DNA of 64,000 nucleotides. Origin: Streptomyces griseiscabiei (GTDB lineage Bacteria > Actinomycetota > Actinomycetes > Streptomycetales > Streptomycetaceae). The stretch spans positions 3,885,001 through 3,949,000 of the forward strand of contig NZ_JAGJBZ010000001.1 in NCBI RefSeq assembly GCF_020010925.1, in the 5' to 3' direction. Under the pieces are notes generated by a model. That model had not been told where the DNA came from. It saw only the letters and a program-made list of their open reading frames with translations, and searched no databases. This document shows positions 49,249-59,792 of this stretch, in pieces; within the stretch, counting starts at the first letter, position 1; the number at the start of each line of letters is the position of its first letter. The translations under genes and the position numbers were made by a program.

Positions 49249-49390
49249 GACCTCGCTCGGTGAAATGACGCGATCACCCCGAGCGGGGCCACCGCCCCAG
49301 CCCCGTCCGGGAGTTCGGGAGTTTGGGACACGGTTTACCTCTTCCACACGCGGGGGACAAATCGCTCAAGCAGAACGGGGAGCACTTGAT

Positions 49391-49771
49391 TTGAGCGATC
49401 AGCAGCATGTGATCTCGATATCGGTCATCGCCGACCCGGATGGTGAGCAGGCCCGGTCACTGAGCCGATGGCTGCAACGCGACAACAAGGTGGTCACGTC
49501 ACCGGACATCACACCGGGTGCCGGGAAGCCGGACCCGGAGGCGATGAGCGGCGGACTCGACTGGCTGAACTTCGGTGTCTCCACGGCGATCGGCCTGAGC
49601 AGCCTGATCGTCAGCATCGCGACCTGGTGCTCGACGAGGGGCTCCGGGCAGCAGGCCCGTATGTCCAGCGACCGGGGCCGCTCCGTGGACGTCTCCCGGG
49701 CGGAAGCCGTACCCGAACGCGCCGACGAGCGCGCCGAAGAGATGTTGGGCGACGCCGATCCAGAACGGTAG
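49391..49771 (+). CDS. EACC1 protein of conflict module 1 (effector-associated constant component)
   Basis: A 126-residue protein matching, by pattern, the EACC1 family that accompanies caspase- or trypsin-like effectors in actinobacterial conflict systems. Residues 1-30 hold a beta-rich segment (ISVIADPDGEQARSLSRWLQ). A proline/glycine stretch and a hydrophobic helix follow (LNFGVSTAIGLSSLIVSIATW, about 60-80). The C-terminal part is charged (GRSVDVSRAEAVPERADERA). The TTG at 49391 was chosen because GGGGAG lies 7 bp upstream; the longer open frame (from 49265) has no site. The caspase gene starts 7 bp after the stop. Confidence 0.75.
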   Translation: MSDQQHVISISVIADPDGEQARSLSRWLQRDNKVVTSPDITPGAGKPDPEAMSGGLDWLNFGVSTAIGLSSLIVSIATWCSTRGSGQQARMSSDRGRSVDVSRAEAVPERADERAEEMLGDADPER

Positions 49772-49778
49772 CCGGGGC

Positions 49779-51083
49779 ATGAGCGGACGGCTGCGCGATC
49801 CGCACCGGTCGGCGGCGGTCATAGCCGGGGTCTTCCACCAGACCTCCGGCAGCGACCTGCTGAACCTCCCGGCGGTCGAGAACAACGTCCGCGATCTGGC
49901 CCGGGCCCTCCGCGACCCGGGCATCTGGGGTCTCCCCGGCGAACGATGTGTCGAGCTTCCCCAGCCGACCAGGGAGCAGTTCCTGAGCGCGGTCGGGGAG
50001 GCCGGCGCCACGGCGACGGACACGCTGTTCGTCTACTTCGCGGGGCACGGCATCGTCCACCCGGCCACGGACCGGCTCTATCTGGCGTTGCCCGACTTCA
50101 ACAGCGAGGGCGAGTTCGGGACCAAGGCCATCAGGTACGCGGACCTCCAGGATCTGCTGTGGGAACCGCGCGTCAAGGCCCGCCACAAGGTGATCGTCCT
50201 CGACACCTGTTTCAGCGCCAGGGCGTTCGACGACTCCATGGGCGGGAGGAACGCCGTCTACGACATGCTGAGGACACGGGGAGCGTGCACCCTGGTGTCC
50301 TCGGACGTCACGGAGACCTCCAGAGCCCCACAGGGGACCGACTACACGGCGTACACCGCCCGCGTGATCTCCACCCTGCGACACGGCATCGAGGACGAGG
50401 AAGAGACGCTCACCCTCCAGGCCGTACACGGACACATCCGCGAGCGGCTCCGCTCGGCGAACATCTCCACCCCGCGCATCCTGGGCGCCGACGACACCCC
50501 TCTGATACGCATCGCCCGCAACCGCGCCTTCGACGGCGGCTCCACGGAGCCCGGCGGCACGAGCACCCCGTCCCCGGGTGAGCAATGGCAGGATTTCCAG
50601 GACGAGTTGTTCCGTCTCCTCAAGGCGGAACTCGGAACCGGCCGCGCGGATGTGCGGGTGGAGTACTCGCTTCCCTGGGACGTCCGCCTCGGCCCGCGGC
50701 AGGAGGGGGAGCGCCTGCTCGCGCTCTTCGAGCACCGCACGCTGCTGGCCCACCGGTTCACCGCCTTCACGACGAAGGCCGTGAAGTTCCGCCACTCGGG
50801 AAACGGCGACAGCGTCGCGCAGGTCGCCTACACCGATCTGCACCGGTGGTCCGTCAAGATCGACCAGGTCAAGTCACTCTGGCACGACTTCAGGGAGGCC
50901 CGCGCCGACTGGTACGGAAGGCCGGCGTACGCACGGCCCACCCTCAAGTACGACGTACTGCTGACCTGCGATGAGACCACGTTCTACGTACCGCACGGCG
51001 AAGTGGGGGACTATCCGCTCCGCAACCTCCTCGCAAAGGTGCGGGACTTGACCCGGAAGTACGATCTCGACCTCCCGGAGTGA
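49779..51083 (+). CDS. Caspase-like peptidase (C14 family) of conflict module 1, with unassigned C-terminal domain
   Basis: Cytosolic protease of the caspase/metacaspase superfamily, probably a cell-killing effector. The 434 residues have a caspase-like domain (10-240). His90 lies in FVYFAGHGIVH. Cys144 lies in IVLDTCFSARAF. These form the catalytic dyad. After a P/G/S/T linker (about 255-275), a 160-residue C-terminal domain (275-434) has no family I recognise. Segment HRFTAFTTKAVKF, followed by VAQVAYTDLHRWSV, looks like a beta-barrel (PH-like) start. It lies 7 bp after the EACC1 gene, which suggests one transcript. A 598-bp gap follows. Confidence 0.9.
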   Translation: MSGRLRDPHRSAAVIAGVFHQTSGSDLLNLPAVENNVRDLARALRDPGIWGLPGERCVELPQPTREQFLSAVGEAGATATDTLFVYFAGHGIVHPATDRLYLALPDFNSEGEFGTKAIRYADLQDLLWEPRVKARHKVIVLDTCFSARAFDDSMGGRNAVYDMLRTRGACTLVSSDVTETSRAPQGTDYTAYTARVISTLRHGIEDEEETLTLQAVHGHIRERLRSANISTPRILGADDTPLIRIARNRAFDGGSTEPGGTSTPSPGEQWQDFQDELFRLLKAELGTGRADVRVEYSLPWDVRLGPRQEGERLLALFEHRTLLAHRFTAFTTKAVKFRHSGNGDSVAQVAYTDLHRWSVKIDQVKSLWHDFREARADWYGRPAYARPTLKYDVLLTCDETTFYVPHGEVGDYPLRNLLAKVRDLTRKYDLDLPE

Positions 51084-52146: not shown

Positions 52147-52396
52147 TCAAGCGCAAGTAAAGGTCGTGCAGATATCAGGTCAAGGCACTTACGAACACCT
52201 GTGAACATCATGTGAAGCAAAGGTCGTTGGAGGTCCGTCGCCGCCGAAACAACCTGTCGGCGGCGTCTCCGATCAGCCGTTTCTCGCCAACGCCTGCCAG
52301 GTTTTCGGAAACAGAGGCGCCCGCTGTCGGACCCGCCGACTAACGTCAGCCGCTCACGCCTCCGTCAGGAGCGCACGGCAATCGAGGGGAAGCGCT

Positions 52397-52828
52397 GTGA
52401 CCACCATGCCCGAGGAACGGACCGGGTACCGGATCTCCATCGTCGACGAGGACCCGCTGCGTGCGCGCAAGGAGGCTCGTGAGCTGCTCGCCGGGATCGT
52501 CGACGTCGACCCCGGGGCCGTGCTGGACGTTCCCGGCCGGAGCACGGGCGCGGCGAGCGACGGAACCCTCAAGGGCGGGCTCACCGCCGACACCGTCGGT
52601 GTGCTGATCAGCGCCGGTTCGCTGGTCGCCGCCGGGGTGCAGATCTGGCTGGCGCGGGTGCCGCAGCGGACGGTCGTGGTACGGCGACCGGACGGGGCGA
52701 CCCTGCACATCACCGGCAAGGAGGCCCGCGAGGACGACGGCCGCATCGAGCGTTTCCTCGCGGGTGGCGGTGCGGCGACACACCCCACGGACCCGGACGG
52801 CCTCGGCGACACCCCTGCGGCAGGCTGA
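52397..52828 (+). CDS. EACC1 protein of conflict module 2
   Basis: A 143-residue protein of the EACC1 type, better conserved than that of module 1. A beta-rich start (YRISIVDEDPLRARKEAREL) is followed by GTLKGGLTADTVGVLISAGS and LVAAGVQIWLARVP, the amphipathic or membrane-like helix of the family. The C-terminal strand pair is TVVVRRPDGATLHITG. The start is GTG 52397 with GAGGGGAAG about 6 bp upstream. The caspase-helicase gene starts 6 bp after the stop, so both are surely co-transcribed. About 250 bp without a gene lie upstream, holding two AAAGGTCGT repeats (52157, 52220). Confidence 0.8.
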   Translation: MTTMPEERTGYRISIVDEDPLRARKEARELLAGIVDVDPGAVLDVPGRSTGAASDGTLKGGLTADTVGVLISAGSLVAAGVQIWLARVPQRTVVVRRPDGATLHITGKEAREDDGRIERFLAGGGAATHPTDPDGLGDTPAAG

Positions 52829-52834
52829 GCGCGG

Positions 52835-55800
52835 ATGACCGACAACGACCGGTTCGCGATGCTCGTCGGCGTGTCCACCTACGACAGCGACGCGTACCAC
52901 GACCTGCCGCCGGTACGTGCCGACCTGCACTACATGCGGGCGGTACTGCAGAACACCGAGATCGGCATGTACAACGACTGCGAGATGGTCCCCGAGCCGA
53001 CCCGCGCGGAGATGCTGCACGCCGTCGAGTCGTTCCTGAACGCGCGCCGGCCCAGTGAGACGGCCCTGCTGTACTTCAGCGGGCACGGGGAGTTCTGCGA
53101 GGACGACAACCAGCTGTATTTCCTGACCCGGGACACCGATCCGGACGATCTGCCGGGTACGGCGGTGCCGGCGGAGTTCCTGGAGCGGATGCTCCAGTCG
53201 TGCCGGGCCGCTTCGAAACTGGTGCTGCTGGACTGCTGCTCCAGCGGTTCCGTCGTACAGGGGTGGACCGCCAAGGGTTCGGGGGAAGAGCCCGTACGGC
53301 CCGCGCCGAGCACGCTGCTGCGGCCGACAGGCGTGTACTTCATCACGGCCTCAGACGCTCTCCAGTCCGCGTCCGCGATGGCGCCGCCCGGGTCGAGCCT
53401 CGGTACGTCCCGGTTCACCGGGGAGATCGTGGAGGGGCTGCGCAACGGGCGGATCAAGGGCGGCGGCTGGATCACTCCGGATGACCTCTTCGACTACCTG
53501 ACAGCGCAGATGACCCGGGCCGGCGTACCGGAGGAGCAGCGACCCACCAAGTCCACGTTCAGGGCCACGAACAGCCTGCCCTTCGCCCGGTCGGTGGCAC
53601 GCCCGGTGCACCTCCCGGCGCAGCCGCGCGAAGCGGCCGAGGCTGCCCGGCGGTCCCCCACCCTGTTGAAGGCAAGGGAACTGGCCGCGCGGGACGCGCG
53701 GGACGGCCTCGACCGGGAGCGGCTGCTGCGGTACTACGCGCACTGTCTGACCGCCCAGTCGGCGGCCGGTATGCGGCCCGACCGGGACGGCGGACGAGGC
53801 TCGAAGTACTTTCTGCTGGGCCAGGGCGAGGAAACCATCCAGTCCGGCCGGGGCTCCGCCTTCCCCGCTCCCGGTGGGCTGCCCAAACCGCACGGCGCGG
53901 CTGCTGGTGACTCGGGGACACAGCAGGAGTACTGGTACGGCTATCCGGCGATCACGCTGCCCGTGCGGGACGGCGGGGCCCGGGGACGTCGTACCACCGT
54001 GGAGCTGGCGCCGCTGCTCATCCAGCAGATGGAGCTGGCGCCGGACGAGGAGGGCCGGGACATGCTCCGGCCCAGCGGTGTGCCGTCCCTGCACACGGGT
54101 GTCGTGTCGGAGCTGTTGGACGCGGGCGACGCGGCCGATCTGGTCGCGCGCTGGCAGCCGTCCTGGCAGGAGGGCAACGACGCGCAGATGCTGCAGGCCG
54201 TGCGGGAGTTGCTGGACGAGCTGGGGCTGCCGGAACTGGAGCCGCTCGACCCGTCGGCTCTCAGCGAGCGCACGGTGATGCAGGCGCTGCGACCCGGCGC
54301 GCACAACGCGGCAGTACTGCTGGTGCCGTCGGGTGCGGAGGCCAAGGCCACCCAGGCCCTGGTGAGCAACCTGCTGGAGATGTCGACGCGGACCGGGCAG
54401 ATTCCCGGCACCGCCCTGGACGCGCTGCTGAGCGGCGGCGGGAGTGGCGAGGGCGATGCGCGGGACGCGTCCGTCACCGTGGTGGCTCCGGGGCCGTGCA
54501 ACGAGAGCCAGGAGCTGGTGATCTCCTCCGCGATGACACGGCCCCTGACGGTGGCGACCGGGCCGCCCGGGACGGGCAAGAGCGAGGTGGTCACGGCCGT
54601 CGTCACCACCTGTGTCGCCGCCGGCCAGTCCGTGCTGGTCGCCTCCACGAACAACGAGGCCGTGAACGTCGTCGCCGAACGCTGCGACGACATCGCACCG
54701 GGCCTGCTGATGCGTACGGGCAACGTCGAGGCGTTGGAGCGGGAGGCGACGAAGCTGGAGCGGCTGCTCGGCGAACACGCCCAGGCACCGCGACGCGGAT
54801 CGGCCACCGTGGGCGGGCAGTTGCGCGTGGTCGGCAGGACGGCCGACGGGCTGCGGGCGGAGGCCGCAGACCACGTCGGTGAGGAGAGTCGGCTGCTGGA
54901 GTTGCTCGGAACCCGGGAGGAGCTGGCGACCGCGCTGGAGTTGCCGCTGCCACTTCTGGAGGCGGTGTGGGCGACCGACGAGAACGGTGTGGCCGCACTG
55001 GGGCGCTGGGAGGACAGAGCGCGGAAGGTCGCCGCAGCTCGCTGGTGGCTGCTCGGCCCCTGGCGCCGGGGGCGGGCACTCGCCGCGTTGGTCTCGTCGG
55101 TGGCGCATGCCCAGGAGGGTGACACCACAGGCCACACAGGTCTCCCAGACCTCCCGGACCGGCCGTCGTGGCCGGAGTGGGCGACCTCTCGGCCGGTGCC
55201 GTCCGAGCTGCTGGAGTCGCTGGCGGACGCGGTGGCCGTGGAACGGGAAGTACGCGAACTCGTGCCCCGGCACCTGAGCTGGGACGAGGACGGACTACGG
55301 CGGGCGCGGCTCGACGCGGCGGGCGCGCTGTCCGAACTGTCGTCGGAGCTGTCCCAGGCGTTGTCCGCCGAGACACTGATCCGGGCGCGCGGGCTCATGC
55401 AGCAGCGGCTCCAGGCGCTCCGGAGCCGCCGGGGTTACCGGCGCAGCCAGAAGAACCTGATGGCGCACATCAAGGGCTGGGCCACCAGCACCCACTCGGT
55501 GGGAAAACTGGAGCTCACCCCGAAACTGTTCGACCTCGTCGTCATCGACGAGGCGAGCCAGTGCTCCATCCCCTCGGTGCTGCCGCTGCTGTTCCGGGCC
55601 CGCCGCGCGCTGATCATCGGCGATCCGATGCAGCTGGGCCACATCCCCGGGGTGTCACCCCAGCAGGAACAACAGGCGCGGGTCCGGTCCGGCCTGAGTG
55701 CGGCACAGCTGGAGGACCACAGACTCACCTACCACGTGTACTCCTCGTACCACGCGGCCGAGCAGCACGGTGACTCCGCGCTCCTCCTCGACGAGCACTA

Positions 55801-56758
55801 CCGCTGCCACCCCCGGATCGCCGACATCGTCAACGGCTACTGCTACGCGGGCCAGTTGCGGGTGCTCACCGACGTACGGCGGCAGGTCCCGGCCCTGGAC
55901 CCGGTGGGGGCGGCCGATCCGGCGCCGGCACTCGGCTGGGTCGACGTACGGCACGGCGAGTCGTCGCGCGGCGGCGACGGGCGGTCCTGGCGCAACGCGG
56001 CGGAGGCGGATGCCGTACGACAGGTGGTGGACGAACTGCTGGCAGGGCTGCCGGAGGACGCCACGGTGGGGGTGGTCACGCCGTTCCGGGCGCAGAAGGA
56101 GACACTGGCGCGGGTGTGGCGCGACGACGACCGCGTCCGGGTCGGCACCGTGCACGCCTTCCAGGGCGGGCAGCGCGACGTGATGGTGCTGAGCCCGGTG
56201 GCCACGTACAACACCCCGCCCAGGACGGCCCATTGGGTCGCGAGCCAGGTCAACCTGTGGAACGTGGCGGTGACCCGGGCCAAGTCGCAGCTGATCACCG
56301 TGGGCGCGCATACCTTCTGGCAGGGGCAGAGCGGACTGCCGACCCTGCTCGCGGACCGCTCGGCGCCGCTGGGAACGGACACGGACGAGGCCGACGGGCA
56401 GGCGGTGACGGCCGCCCCGGCCACCGGGTTCCGCGAGGAACTCGCCGACCGGCTCCAGCAGTACCTCACCGAGCGCGGTATCACCGATCTGGAGCGTACG
56501 GCGATGGTCGGCGGCCACCCGGTGGACCTGTTGTTCACCGAGGCCGGCGAGAACACGGCGGTCCTGATCGACCCCGGCCGGCCGCCGGGGGCCGACCCGG
56601 CACGGCACCTGCGGCTGACGCACGCGCGGGGCGATCTGCTGACCGGACTGCCGTCCGGGGGCTACGGGGCGAAGGCGTGCCCGGTGGGGCGGACGGTGCG
56701 GGTACCGGCGTGGCGGATCCTGGCGGGCGACAGGGTGATGGCGCCACTGTTCGACTGA
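52835..56758 (+). CDS. Caspase-like peptidase fused to UPF1/DNA2-type SF1 helicase with C-terminal nuclease-like domain
   Basis: A 1307-residue multi-domain protein. Residues 1-240: caspase-like domain with His84 (LYFSGHGEF) and Cys135 (LLDCCSSG). Residues 255-560: helical and beta region of unknown type. Residues 560-1190: superfamily 1 helicase of the UPF1/DNA2 kind: Walker A GPPGTGKS (576-583), DEASQ Walker B (905-909), motif III IGDPMQLGH, motif V VHAFQGGQRDV, motif VI NVAVTRAK. A long insert (640-860) lies between motifs I and II. Residues 1205-1307: a domain of the restriction-endonuclease-like type (HPVDLLFTE, VLIDPGRPPG) without a clear E-x-K. It is coupled to an EACC1 gene and is probably a nucleic-acid sensing suicide effector. 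Confidence 0.88.
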   Translation: MTDNDRFAMLVGVSTYDSDAYHDLPPVRADLHYMRAVLQNTEIGMYNDCEMVPEPTRAEMLHAVESFLNARRPSETALLYFSGHGEFCEDDNQLYFLTRDTDPDDLPGTAVPAEFLERMLQSCRAASKLVLLDCCSSGSVVQGWTAKGSGEEPVRPAPSTLLRPTGVYFITASDALQSASAMAPPGSSLGTSRFTGEIVEGLRNGRIKGGGWITPDDLFDYLTAQMTRAGVPEEQRPTKSTFRATNSLPFARSVARPVHLPAQPREAAEAARRSPTLLKARELAARDARDGLDRERLLRYYAHCLTAQSAAGMRPDRDGGRGSKYFLLGQGEETIQSGRGSAFPAPGGLPKPHGAAAGDSGTQQEYWYGYPAITLPVRDGGARGRRTTVELAPLLIQQMELAPDEEGRDMLRPSGVPSLHTGVVSELLDAGDAADLVARWQPSWQEGNDAQMLQAVRELLDELGLPELEPLDPSALSERTVMQALRPGAHNAAVLLVPSGAEAKATQALVSNLLEMSTRTGQIPGTALDALLSGGGSGEGDARDASVTVVAPGPCNESQELVISSAMTRPLTVATGPPGTGKSEVVTAVVTTCVAAGQSVLVASTNNEAVNVVAERCDDIAPGLLMRTGNVEALEREATKLERLLGEHAQAPRRGSATVGGQLRVVGRTADGLRAEAADHVGEESRLLELLGTREELATALELPLPLLEAVWATDENGVAALGRWEDRARKVAAARWWLLGPWRRGRALAALVSSVAHAQEGDTTGHTGLPDLPDRPSWPEWATSRPVPSELLESLADAVAVEREVRELVPRHLSWDEDGLRRARLDAAGALSELSSELSQALSAETLIRARGLMQQRLQALRSRRGYRRSQKNLMAHIKGWATSTHSVGKLELTPKLFDLVVIDEASQCSIPSVLPLLFRARRALIIGDPMQLGHIPGVSPQQEQQARVRSGLSAAQLEDHRLTYHVYSSYHAAEQHGDSALLLDEHYRCHPRIADIVNGYCYAGQLRVLTDVRRQVPALDPVGAADPAPALGWVDVRHGESSRGGDGRSWRNAAEADAVRQVVDELLAGLPEDATVGVVTPFRAQKETLARVWRDDDRVRVGTVHAFQGGQRDVMVLSPVATYNTPPRTAHWVASQVNLWNVAVTRAKSQLITVGAHTFWQGQSGLPTLLADRSAPLGTDTDEADGQAVTAAPATGFREELADRLQQYLTERGITDLERTAMVGGHPVDLLFTEAGENTAVLIDPGRPPGADPARHLRLTHARGDLLTGLPSGGYGAKACPVGRTVRVPAWRILAGDRVMAPLFD

Positions 56759-56804
56759 GCGTGGAGATACCTGCACCGGGTGAGCGGGAGCCGGTTCGGG
56801 TTCC

Positions 56805-56851
56805 GGGCAGGCAGCGGACGACGTACGTCATGTGCCGGACGTTGCCTGCCC
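56805..56851 (+). terminator. Putative terminator after the caspase-helicase gene
   Basis: Perfect 9-bp arms GGGCAGGCA (56805-56813) and TGCCTGCCC (56843-56851), with a palindromic GACGTACGTC inside the loop. The rest of the gap up to rnpB (57092) has no gene. Confidence 0.5.
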
Positions 56852-57029
56852 AGAGCCACTCCGTGGGCCCGCCCGTGCTCTCGCCTGACGTGACGGGCCC
56901 CGTCCGCGCAAGCGCGCCGGGCGGGCCCCCTGCTGCGTGGGCGGATCCCCGAGGAACTGCGTTGGTCCGGAGGGATCGACTTTTCAGGGACTTCCGAGAG
57001 ACTTTTCGCCGCCTGGCGCGACAAGCCCC

Positions 57030-57071
57030 TGAAAAACCGGCAAGGGCCTCCGACACAGGTCAGAGGCCCTT
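57030..57071 (-). terminator. Rho-independent terminator of rnpB
   Basis: On the minus strand, AAGGGCCTC (57071-57063) pairs with GAGGCCCTT (57050-57042), followed by a T run (57035-57031). It lies 22 bp downstream of the RNase P RNA 3' end. A further dyad (TTTTCAGGG/CCCTGAAAA) overlaps it on the left. Confidence 0.8.
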
Positions 57072-57092
57072 CCCAGGCAAACCCGCAAGTGG

Positions 57093-57517
57093 CGGCAGAC
57101 GAGCAGGGCTGTACGCCGGGTTCTGTCCCACGGGTCCTCGCGGCGCCCGTGGTGACGGCCATCCATCTAGGGTCGGCGTTGCCGCCGGCCTCGTGCGGTC
57201 TACCCGCGGACTCGGGCGGGCAGCCCTCGAACGTCCGCGCAGGGTCGCCCTTCTTTCGAAGAGGTGGCCCCTCTTGACCTTGCTCCGGGTGGGGTTTACC
57301 TAGCTGCCCAGGTCGCCCTGGGCACTGGTGGTCTCTTACACCACCGTTTCACCCTTACCCGGCGCCGAAGCGCCGGGCGGTTTGTTTTCTGTGGCACTGT
57401 CCCGCGGGTCACCCCGGGTGGCCGTTAGCCATCACCCTGCCCTGTGGAGCCCGGACGTTCCTCGGGGAGCCCCCTCAGGGGGAATCCACGCGGCCGTCCG
57501 CCCGGCTCGTCTGCCGT
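57093..57517 (-). ncRNA. rnpB: RNase P RNA (bacterial type A)
   Basis: Catalytic RNA that trims the 5' leader of pre-tRNAs. On the minus strand the sequence contains the universal core blocks GAGGAACGTCCGGGCTCC, then ACAGGGCAGGGTGATGGC, GGTAAGGGTGAAACGGTGG and, near the 3' end, AGATGGATGGCCGTCAC with the conserved GGGACAGAACCCGGC. Helix P1 is visible: GGCAGACGAG (5' end, 57515-57506) pairs with CTCGTCTGCC (57103-57094). Length about 425 nt, normal for Streptomyces. Its 5' end and promoter lie inside the 3' end of the EamA gene. Confidence 0.97.
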
Positions 57518-58426: not shown

Positions 58427-59251
58427 TCAGCGGCCTGCGTCTTGAACGCTGTTGCGGTACGCCGCCGGGGTCACCCCCAGCACCTTCCCGAACCAGCGCG
58501 TCATGTGCGCCTGGTCCGCGAAGCCCACCTGGACCGCTGCTTCCGCCGGGCGCGCGCCCGCCTCCAGCAGGCCCCGGGCCCGGGCCACCCGGTGCTGGGC
58601 CAGCCAGGCGTACGGGGGCATGCCCATCGTCGTACGGAAGGCCCGCAGCAGCTGATAGCGGGAGAGGCCCAGGTCGGAGGCGAGATCGGCCAGGGAGGGC
58701 GGGGTGGCGAGTTCGTCGGCCAGGCGGTCCCGTACGGCCAGGGCGACGGTGTTCGCGCCGGGGAGGCTGTCGGAGGTCGGGCGGGACGTCGAGTGGCGGC
58801 GGGCCAGGGCCGTGAGCAGCCAGGGGAGGCGGGACTCGGCCTCCAGCGGGTCGGGGCAGGTGCTCAGCTCGGTGTGGGCGATGCGCAGGGCGGCGGCGAG
58901 TTCCGGGTCGTGGAGGAGGGGCTCGCGGAAGTGCGGGGTGCCGCCGAGGACGCCGTCGGTGAGGAGGGTGGGGGCGGGGTAGAGGGCGCGGTAGGCGTAG
59001 GTGCCGTAGGCCGATTCGCCGGTGTGGACCTCGCCCGGGGCCAGGACGACTATCGAGCCCTCGCCGACCCTGAGGCCGCCGCCCCGGTAGTCGATGCAGG
59101 AGGCGCCGAGGACGCAGATGCCGATGCTGAATTCCTCGTGTGTGTGCGGGGCGTAGCGGTGGCTGTCGAAGCGGGCGGTGAGGAGGTCGAGGGGGCGGTC
59201 GGGGTGGCCGAGGGTGGTGCGGGTCCACCGGGTCTGTCCGCTCCCGTTCAC
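58427..59251 (-). CDS. AraC-family transcription regulator
   Basis: Cupin-AraC regulator. The 274 residues have an N-terminal cupin-like sensor (about 15-110: HTHEEFSIGICV, GSIVVLAPGEVHTGE) and a C-terminal pair of helix-turn-helices (about 170-270: LADLASDLGLSRYQLLRAFR, then AAVQVGFADQAHMTRWFGKVLG with the GxxPxxYR-like end VTPAAYRNS). The GTG at 59251 was chosen because GGCGAGG lies 5 bp upstream. It overlaps the stop of the decayed Uma2 gene by 4 bp and is followed by the EamA exporter, which it probably controls. Confidence 0.93.
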   Translation of the reverse strand: MNGSGQTRWTRTTLGHPDRPLDLLTARFDSHRYAPHTHEEFSIGICVLGASCIDYRGGGLRVGEGSIVVLAPGEVHTGESAYGTYAYRALYPAPTLLTDGVLGGTPHFREPLLHDPELAAALRIAHTELSTCPDPLEAESRLPWLLTALARRHSTSRPTSDSLPGANTVALAVRDRLADELATPPSLADLASDLGLSRYQLLRAFRTTMGMPPYAWLAQHRVARARGLLEAGARPAEAAVQVGFADQAHMTRWFGKVLGVTPAAYRNSVQDAGR

Positions 59252-59792
59252 TGTGCCTCGCCCCGTTCCGCCTCGCGCCCCCACCGTCGCTTCAGGCTAC
59301 GCCCGGCGGATCGATCAAAGAGGAAGTCCGATGTCTCCAGGTCGAAGGCGAAGGGGTCGGGGAGGGTGAGTGCTTTGCCGAAGGGGACGGTGCAGCGTCG
59401 GCGGTAGTCGTCTCCTCGCGGGTCGCTGAGGAGTGTCGTCTCAGATGTGTCGCGGTCGATGAGCAGGTGGAGCGGGATACCGCCGCGGGCGTAGCAACGG
59501 CGTTCGACCTCACGGTCGGCCTTCGGCCTGGTGGATGTCACTTCCAGCACCGTGGAGACACCCTGGCAGGGCATCCAGGGGTCCGCCCCCCGGTAGAGAC
59601 GCAGGGTCCTGGGGGCACATGTGCCGTCCGGGATCACGTGGTCCTTCGGGCATCCCTCCGCTTTCCCCGGCTTCAGCCCCTTGTTCCCGGAGAACTGCAT
59701 GTCGGTCCGGGACCGCCTGTACACCTGCTGCACGATCAGCTCGATGTAGTCCTCGCTTCCTGCGAGAGCGGTTCGTGGGCCATGGCAGTCAT
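59248..59792 (-). pseudogene. Decayed Uma2-family endonuclease gene
   Basis: The ATG at 59792 has a strong ribosome-binding site (AAGGAGGGG) and begins a Uma2-like start (MTAMAHEPLSQEA), but that frame stops after 18 codons. The body continues in another frame from about 59750 (YIELIVQQVYRRSRTDMQF) to the stop at 59248. It has the nuclease core: VLEVTSTRPKADREVERRCY and ARGGIPLHLLIDRD, with acidic and lysine residues of the PD-(D/E)xK type. About 50 residues usual between the start and IELIVQQV are missing (from memory of homologues). A GTG at 59733 could still give a 161-residue fragment. It overlaps the AraC start. Confidence 0.65.

Follow-up and report, generated by a model that had tools for sequence, protein, structure and literature searches.

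Background

The closest described relatives of the locus reported here are the EACC1 two-gene conflict systems (System 4 of Kaur et al. 2020). According to the main-text section on these systems, the C-terminal domain joined to the caspase can be any of up to 50 kinds, including STAND NTPases, and in the published model EACC1 is a membrane sensor that leads to self-cleavage of the caspase and thereby to deployment of the variable domain (PMC7159879). The systems are strongly tied to a multicellular habit (650/671, Table 1 of the same paper). Here we describe a variant found in a stretch of 64,000 nucleotides of Streptomyces griseiscabiei (contig NZ_JAGJBZ010000001.1, positions 3,885,001 to 3,949,000; hereafter the window), in which an EACC1 gene is followed by a gene encoding a caspase and a superfamily 1 (SF1) helicase in one chain. 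Our favoured reading, which we would put somewhat below even chances, is that the operon is a conflict system of the abortive-infection type, in which the helicase senses, the caspase fires and EACC1 is the substrate.

The operon and its caspase

The two open reading frames (ORFs) are separated by 6 bp and have the following parts:

52397..52828, + strand: EACC1 gene, 143 aa (PF19953 25.8 bits, cut-off 23.6; tblastn match in 33 of 36 named loci)
52571..52573, + strand: Lys59 of EACC1, proposed P1 or docking residue for the caspase S1 pocket (EACC1/caspase residue pairing)
52598..52651, + strand: hydrophobic helix of EACC1, residues 68-85 (19-residue mean hydropathy 1.86)
52835..56758, + strand: caspase-helicase fusion protein, 1307 aa (ORF with Pfam and NCBIfam profile matches)
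52850..53515, + strand: caspase domain, residues 6-227, with Asp30, His84, Asp133 and Cys135 (PF00656, NF047832, MALT1 alignment)
53591..54499, + strand: middle domain, residues 253-555 (kept across the family alignment; without known relative in the Pfam and PDB comparisons)
54500..56329, + strand: UPF1-like SF1 helicase module, residues 556-1165 (AAA_11, AAA_12, PDB matches, motifs)
56417..56755, + strand: C-terminal domain resembling a restriction endonuclease (REase) fold, residues 1195-1307, expected catalytic Glu missing (hhalign 81.8%; residue counts)

An earlier note on this DNA, made from the sequence alone, had placed the two ORFs at these positions and had read them as EACC1 followed by a single-chain caspase-helicase fusion. 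This reading stands: the searches for EACC1 and for the caspase both gave matches above their cut-offs, the caspase region matching PF00656 (Peptidase_C14) with 48.5 bits (cut-off 21.4) and NCBIfam NF047832, 'caspase, EACC1-associated type', with 167.8 bits (cut-off 140), while the helicase module matched AAA_12 with 107.7 and AAA_11 with 69.2 bits.

Relatives of the fusion were collected in two protein searches, which gave 709 and 373 matches among 8000 scored candidates each; the best 120 of each were used. The resulting alignment contains 244 proteins (the window's, 238 of the 240 listed relatives and five from fetched loci; two rows are identical), of which 121 have 50% or more identity to the window's protein and 123 less. 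The aligned relatives were chosen to exceed 1150 aa and are therefore near full length. The organisms named among the listed relatives are Actinomycetota, as far as recognised, and many of the relatives among the matches listed are already labelled 'caspase, EACC1-associated type' by NCBI.

His84, Asp133 and Cys135 are invariant in all 244 proteins, which bears out the His84/Cys135 dyad proposed in the earlier note, and position 30 is Asp in 242 (a gap in the other two). The best PDB match of the caspase profile is the human paracaspase MALT1, with about 32-34 bits for most entries. Numbered back from the catalytic Cys of MALT1, which we take to be Cys464, Asp30 and Asp133 align on its residues Asp365 and Asp462. 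Similarity to the window's caspase is only remote, but the S1 Asp residues are common to both. In MALT1 these residues read the P1 arginine, according to passages in PMC4357240 and PMC4626109, and a caspase with a MALT1-like acidic S1 pocket would prefer Lys or Arg.

Pairing of caspase position 30 with an EACC1 residue

Lys-Gly stands directly before the hydrophobic helix of EACC1 in all 40 partners read (the window's, those of 33 named loci and those of the distant loci L057-L062). An EACC1-like gene precedes the fusion in the distant loci L057-L063, and the partners in L057, L060 and L062 match PF19953 above the cut-off. For L058, a 1477-aa frame had suggested that EACC1 is fused to the caspase; this was rejected, the added N-terminus being another frame over a separate EACC1 gene.

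The EACC1 residue and caspase position 30 were compared in 124 pairs from fetched loci, or 97 once duplicates and weak matches had been removed. Where the caspase has Asp30 (49 pairs), the EACC1 residue is Lys in 47, Arg in one and Thr in one, that is Lys or Arg in 48/49, and the single Thr (L163) has a Lys six residues earlier. Where it has Asn, Thr, Ser or Gly (46 pairs), EACC1 has Met (28), Leu (10) or Gln (6), besides two misaligned rows (L119 and L145, read by eye as Met and Gln); Lys or Arg was found in 0/46. Two pairs are without a letter at caspase position 30 (L177, with EACC1 Met, and L130, with EACC1 Arg). Gly follows the paired EACC1 residue in 89 of the 96 pairs readable by script. 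Most Asp30 pairs are from close Streptomyces relatives; a thinned set of 58 pairs holds 14 with Asp30 (Lys 12, Arg 1, Thr 1), and in this set column 59 separates the residue-30 classes best among the EACC1 columns (0.966, the next 0.94). Caspase column 192 (Ser versus Thr/Pro) separates the classes fully too, and the score of 1.0 for caspase column 30 is no evidence, because that column defines the classes.

Four of the 49 Asp30 pairs are non-helicase fusions: L129/L190 with a PQQ propeller, L163 with WD40 repeats, L162 with a claudin-like match below the cut-off, and L161, in which nothing could be named. In a later check, 12 regions of a plasmid collection were picked from 43 and 51 matching records. 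All seven clean pairs fit the rule, with Asp and Lys in L198, L201, L202 and L204, Asp and Arg in L203, and Asn and Met in L208 and L209; L198 is no fresh lineage, since it is close to L129. The regions set aside were L199, L205, L206 and L207, which have no recognisable EACC1, and L200, which looks frame-shifted.

From this pairing it is likely that EACC1 touches the S1 pocket of the caspase. The contact could have two meanings. EACC1 may be cut by the caspase, or a loop with Lys or Arg (or Met, Leu or Gln in the other class) may fill the S1 pocket and hold the caspase off while itself remaining uncut. The same residue pairing agrees with such a docked regulator, and in L201 and L202 the Lys-Pro is easier to reconcile with binding than with a cut. 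The gene order, however, is compatible with either role, the linker around Lys59 is rich in Gly and Pro and looks flexible, and Gly is the usual next residue. Cleavage appears the somewhat better candidate, and docking seems to us improbable.

Several observations weigh against EACC1 as the substrate in a defence system. Lys-Pro, as found in L201 and L202, is a poor protease site, which makes a cut at the Lys59-type bond less likely. Two caspase trees, of 71 and 76 sequences, each show a single change of class at position 30, and the first shows a single change of the EACC1 residue as well; repeated co-variation of caspase position 30 and EACC1 position 59 was rejected on this ground. The pairing has been maintained across a deep split, but it is one evolutionary event without independent replicate, so that no statistical claim can rest on it. 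Among 13 deep EACC1 representatives, Lys59 belongs to the most strongly conserved residues, but is not the sole one. The EACC1 proteins of four distant relatives are weakly hydrophobic (hydropathy 1.03-1.25), which weakens the idea of a pore; the partner in L059 reaches 14.8 bits with PF19953, below the cut-off, and the one in L061 was not recognised. Finally, a Pfam scan of 18 window proteins showed no clear defence neighbour of the operon besides a second EACC1-caspase pair.

EACC1-caspase pairs also occur on plasmid records (L198, L208 and L204), two of them near recombinase genes (Nonomuraea, Nocardia), and the pair of L204 belongs to the betaproteobacterium Caballeronia. In L192 (598-2952) a frame with an HSP70 domain follows a caspase that is seemingly split over two frames, and the EACC1 upstream has Arg-Ser.

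Helicase, middle domain and C-terminal domain

All four helicase motifs were found (GPPGTGKS at 576, DEASQ at 905, AFQGGQ at 1108 and NVAVTRAK at 1143), in agreement with the earlier note, which had recognised a complete SF1 set of the UPF1/DNA2 kind. They are retained almost without exception in the family, and the Walker A Lys582 is invariant (244/244). The best PDB matches of the family profile are a 5'-3' RNA helicase-like protein (8ftm), SEN1, UPF1 and SMUBP-2, with DNA2 lower. The fusion copy of Streptomyces sp. Ag109_O5-1 has an interruption of about 1.4 kb (L023, 11470-12872) close to the C-terminal part.

The middle domain, residues 253-555, is a conserved stretch within the family; the window's copy has no Pfam match, and its best PDB match (E 0.17) is not significant. 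A proposed relationship with the segment between kinase and helicase of MkoA, compared for one MkoA, was dropped as unsupported (probability 0.2%).

Sequence searches with the C-terminal domain gave nothing in PDB and nothing convincing in Pfam. PF18741 was used to find three restriction-endonuclease-like domains of the MTES_1575 type; hhalign of the C-terminal domain against a profile built from them gave a probability of 81.8% over 46 columns, whereas 14 control windows of the same family gave at most 1.9%. Asp1231 (241/244) and Asp1246 (244/244) align with Asp positions of the MTES_1575 fold. The Glu of the E-x-D/K strand, which we take to be catalytic in this type of fold, is expected at position 1244, where the family has Leu (207), Ile (17), Val (16) or, once each, Phe, Met, Arg and His. 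The residue is thus acidic in 0/244, and position 1248, a possible site for the catalytic Lys, is Gly in 222/244; together these make the label of nuclease doubtful. Of the two parts of the earlier note's description, the REase-like shape is retained and the nuclease is not: the domain likely has the MTES_1575 fold but is probably not a working nuclease. It is therefore very unlikely, in our judgement, that the operon acts in a restriction-like manner, the helicase and C-terminal domain cutting the nucleic acid of the invader and the caspase merely regulating; the fold and its conserved Asp residues would suit such a role, but the residues at 1244 and 1248 would not. The fold comparison itself draws on three references, two with the expected Glu and one without it.

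The same domains bear on the model of Kaur et al., by which EACC1 as a membrane sensor would activate the caspase, self-cleavage would free the C-terminal module, and the helicase and REase parts would be the effector. In favour of this order are the constant EACC1-caspase pair, the very variable C-terminal domains and the conserved membrane segment of EACC1, as set out in the main text of PMC7159879. One Lys/Arg-Gly pair is fairly conserved in the fusion, at 880-881 (84% and 83%), although it lies inside the helicase. In the linker and middle domain, however, no residue is Lys or Arg in 90% of the caspase-helicase family. In the Streptomyces clade alone, linker residues R252, R256, K279 and R299 are Lys or Arg in at least 95%, so that a self-cleavage site specific to this clade may exist. 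The REase-like tail lacks the expected Glu, and of the variable domains found on related caspases (WD40, PQQ propeller, helicase), the WD40 and PQQ domains on Asp30 caspases resemble sensors no less than effectors. Since no Lys or Arg between caspase and helicase reaches 90% across the family, the tail looks dead and the variable domains look sensor-like, we prefer the inverse order, with the helicase sensing and EACC1 as target, and consider the published order unlikely for this fusion.

Proposed mechanism

In the order that we prefer, DNA or RNA of an invader would be recognised by the SF1 helicase and its REase-like tail, which looks inactive, perhaps together with the middle domain, and the helicase would spend ATP on activating the caspase in the same chain. 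The caspase would then act on EACC1 near Lys59-Gly60, in the Gly-rich linker that leads into the hydrophobic helix. The freed or rearranged EACC1 would damage the membrane and stop the infected cell, somewhat like a caspase-gasdermin pair; that the freed fragment makes pores is a guess.

A wider proposal, which we put forward tentatively and as less than an even bet, is that EACC1 is the caspase substrate across the whole class. A single residue of the Gly-rich linker would be read by the caspase (Lys or Arg by an Asp30 pocket, Met, Leu or Gln by an Asn, Thr or Ser pocket), the hydrophobic helix would be freed to kill, and the fused variable domain would be the sensor, which inverts the published model. 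The operon itself would be a bacterial counterpart of nucleic-acid sensing linked directly to a caspase, within one polypeptide. What is new is a residue-level and cheaply testable proposal on the role of EACC1 and the target of the caspase for the whole EACC1 class.

Distribution and genomic context

The operon was found in 5 of 100 other genomes of the genus (6/101 with the window's; helicase part at E 1e-60 or better). Among 41 genomes of relatives of the window, 30 have the EACC1 domain; across the phylum, at a stricter limit, it was found in 4 of 198. For 36 named loci the flanks were compared over up to 8 kb, some being cut by contig ends. In 32 of these, similarity to the window is confined to the operon and its edges (at most about 52264-56917), and it goes further in L004, L011, L030 and L032. 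Roughly half of the 36 loci lie at a common location (among 69 flanks compared, one cluster of 17 right flanks and another of 17 flanks, 16 of them left). The operon is thus not a freely jumping cassette, inheritance of an island at one place being part of the picture. The distribution is accessory, and a conserved housekeeping locus, the outcome that the earlier note had named as contrary to its view, was rejected on the low frequency in the genus and the differing locations among the named loci.

In the window the operon lies to the left of rnpB, the RNase P RNA gene (57096-57509, minus strand). In 14 of 40 other genomes rnpB and two genes beyond it are present and similarity to the window ends at 56986-57094; the left stretch fetched from these 14 genomes gave no tblastn match (E 1e-10) to the EACC1 and caspase proteins of the window, and three of them match the window again farther left. 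The operon sits in a variable region that begins at the 3' end of rnpB, which could be an integration hotspot. No near DNA match to the whole operon was found in 72,556 plasmid records; five phage records match the helicase part only, with 25-28% identity and none over 80% of the query.

In S. scabiei the operon is accompanied by a type IIG restriction-modification gene, a helix-turn-helix (HTH)/DUF5753 gene with a weak RmrA match, a PF14350 'Beta protein' gene (PD-Lambda-2_C model) and HEC-01A and HEC-01B candidates. By tblastn these occur in 15, 16, 24, 13 and 11 of the 36 loci, respectively, S. scabiei included; the counts are not independent, because many of the loci represent one inherited island. 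The Beta-protein gene adjoins the fusion on the opposite strand in 24/36. Two flanking frames in S. scabiei, ORF886 and ORF481, were dropped, as their codon use suggests the other strand. In L030 (17-15185) a syntenic island seen in many Streptomyces holds the restriction-modification and HTH genes, EACC1 with the caspase-helicase, the Beta protein and HEC-01A/B. Nine proteins were scanned across the distant loci L057-L060 and L062: in L059 the fusion is flanked by a Wadjet JetC and a DrmD-like helicase on one side and by an MkoA on the other, of the two L062 neighbours one matches STAND_TPR, and the four proteins of L057, L058 and L060 gave no match. Defence-type neighbours, in keeping with the defence role put forward in the earlier note, are present in many relatives (S. 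scabiei and L059 among them), but not beside the window's own copy.

The lack of a clear defence neighbour in the window, and the multicellular habit of organisms with EACC1 systems, would also suit a switch for programmed death or development in multicellular actinobacteria that merely travels with defence genes. The patchy presence, the differing locations and the defence islands in relatives speak against such a switch, which we regard as distinctly unlikely. We infer a defence role for the operon from these comparisons: it is a real, accessory and probably defensive system, and represents a variant of the two-gene EACC1 system described by Kaur et al.

The remaining features around the operon are:

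49265..49771, + strand: second EACC1 gene, 168-aa ORF with uncertain start, Met94 replacing Lys (PF19953 54.5 bits)
49779..51083, + strand: second EACC1-type caspase, 434 aa, Asn36 at the Asp30 position (NF047832 181.9 bits)
52264..52396, + strand: conserved upstream block with a GTTTTCGGAAAC-like sequence, probable promoter or regulatory region (similarity across relatives)
56759..56917, + strand: conserved downstream region with strong hairpins, probable terminator (fold z-score; conservation in part of the relatives)

The second pair (49265-51083), which is absent from the earlier note, lies directly upstream and is of the classic type, with Met in EACC1 and Asn in the caspase pocket. Eleven of the 36 named loci are similar to the window from 52281 or farther upstream. 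Seven of 12 aligned relatives have the near-palindrome GTTTTCGGAAAC exactly as in the window, and the other five have varied forms; the block is possibly a promoter of the extracytoplasmic function (ECF) type or an operator, and a promoter pattern scan gave no sigma-70-like site within it. Downstream, 56770-56930 has a fold z-score of -3.46; a pattern scan listed no + strand terminator at 56759..56917. A gene for a putative Uma2-type endonuclease (PF05685) lies at 59248-59733, close to the right flank.

Comparison with known systems

In Mokosh systems a kinase-like or phospholipase-D part goes with the helicase, MkoA having the kinase part. The helicase module of the window matches the PADLOC models of MkoA (2.1e-51) and MkoC (2.3e-52), but the fusion has a caspase where MkoA has its kinase part, and neither a kinase-like nor a phospholipase-D domain was found with Pfam in the two operon proteins.

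Phage-defence effectors activated by a caspase or a trypsin are known from the Canu caspase-nuclease and protease-Hachiman systems, as described in passages of PMC12799240. These likewise couple a protease to another enzyme, in Hachiman a helicase, whereas in the window caspase and helicase form one chain; the Pfam scan of 18 window proteins gave no pro-nuclease of the metallo-beta-lactamase (MBL) fold, a feature of Canu. A helicase sensor that restrains an effector has been described in HamB of Hachiman (PMC10925250 and PMC12278908).

The EACC1 two-gene system remains the nearest relative. The main-text section of PMC7159879 names no helicase fusion, and neither an EACC1-caspase-SF1 fusion nor cleavage of EACC1 appears in the bacterial EACC1 literature as represented by passages of PMC7159879 and PMC8195603, supplements and subscription papers lying outside this scope. 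The earlier note's view that in EACC1 systems the peptidase and the NTPase are usually found on separate proteins or on simpler ones is contradicted by the fused C-terminal domains, STAND NTPases among them, described in the main text of PMC7159879. The operon has the layout of that system, with a 5' EACC1 gene (PF19953 25.8 versus cut-off 23.6), a 3' gene with an N-terminal EACC1-associated caspase (NF047832 167.8 versus 140), and at the C-terminus of the caspase a variable domain, here the SF1 helicase. It differs in that this C-terminal part consists of a UPF1-like helicase with a REase-fold-like tail, and in that Asp30 of the caspase is paired with Lys in EACC1, where the other type has Asn, Thr, Ser or Gly with Met, Leu or Gln.

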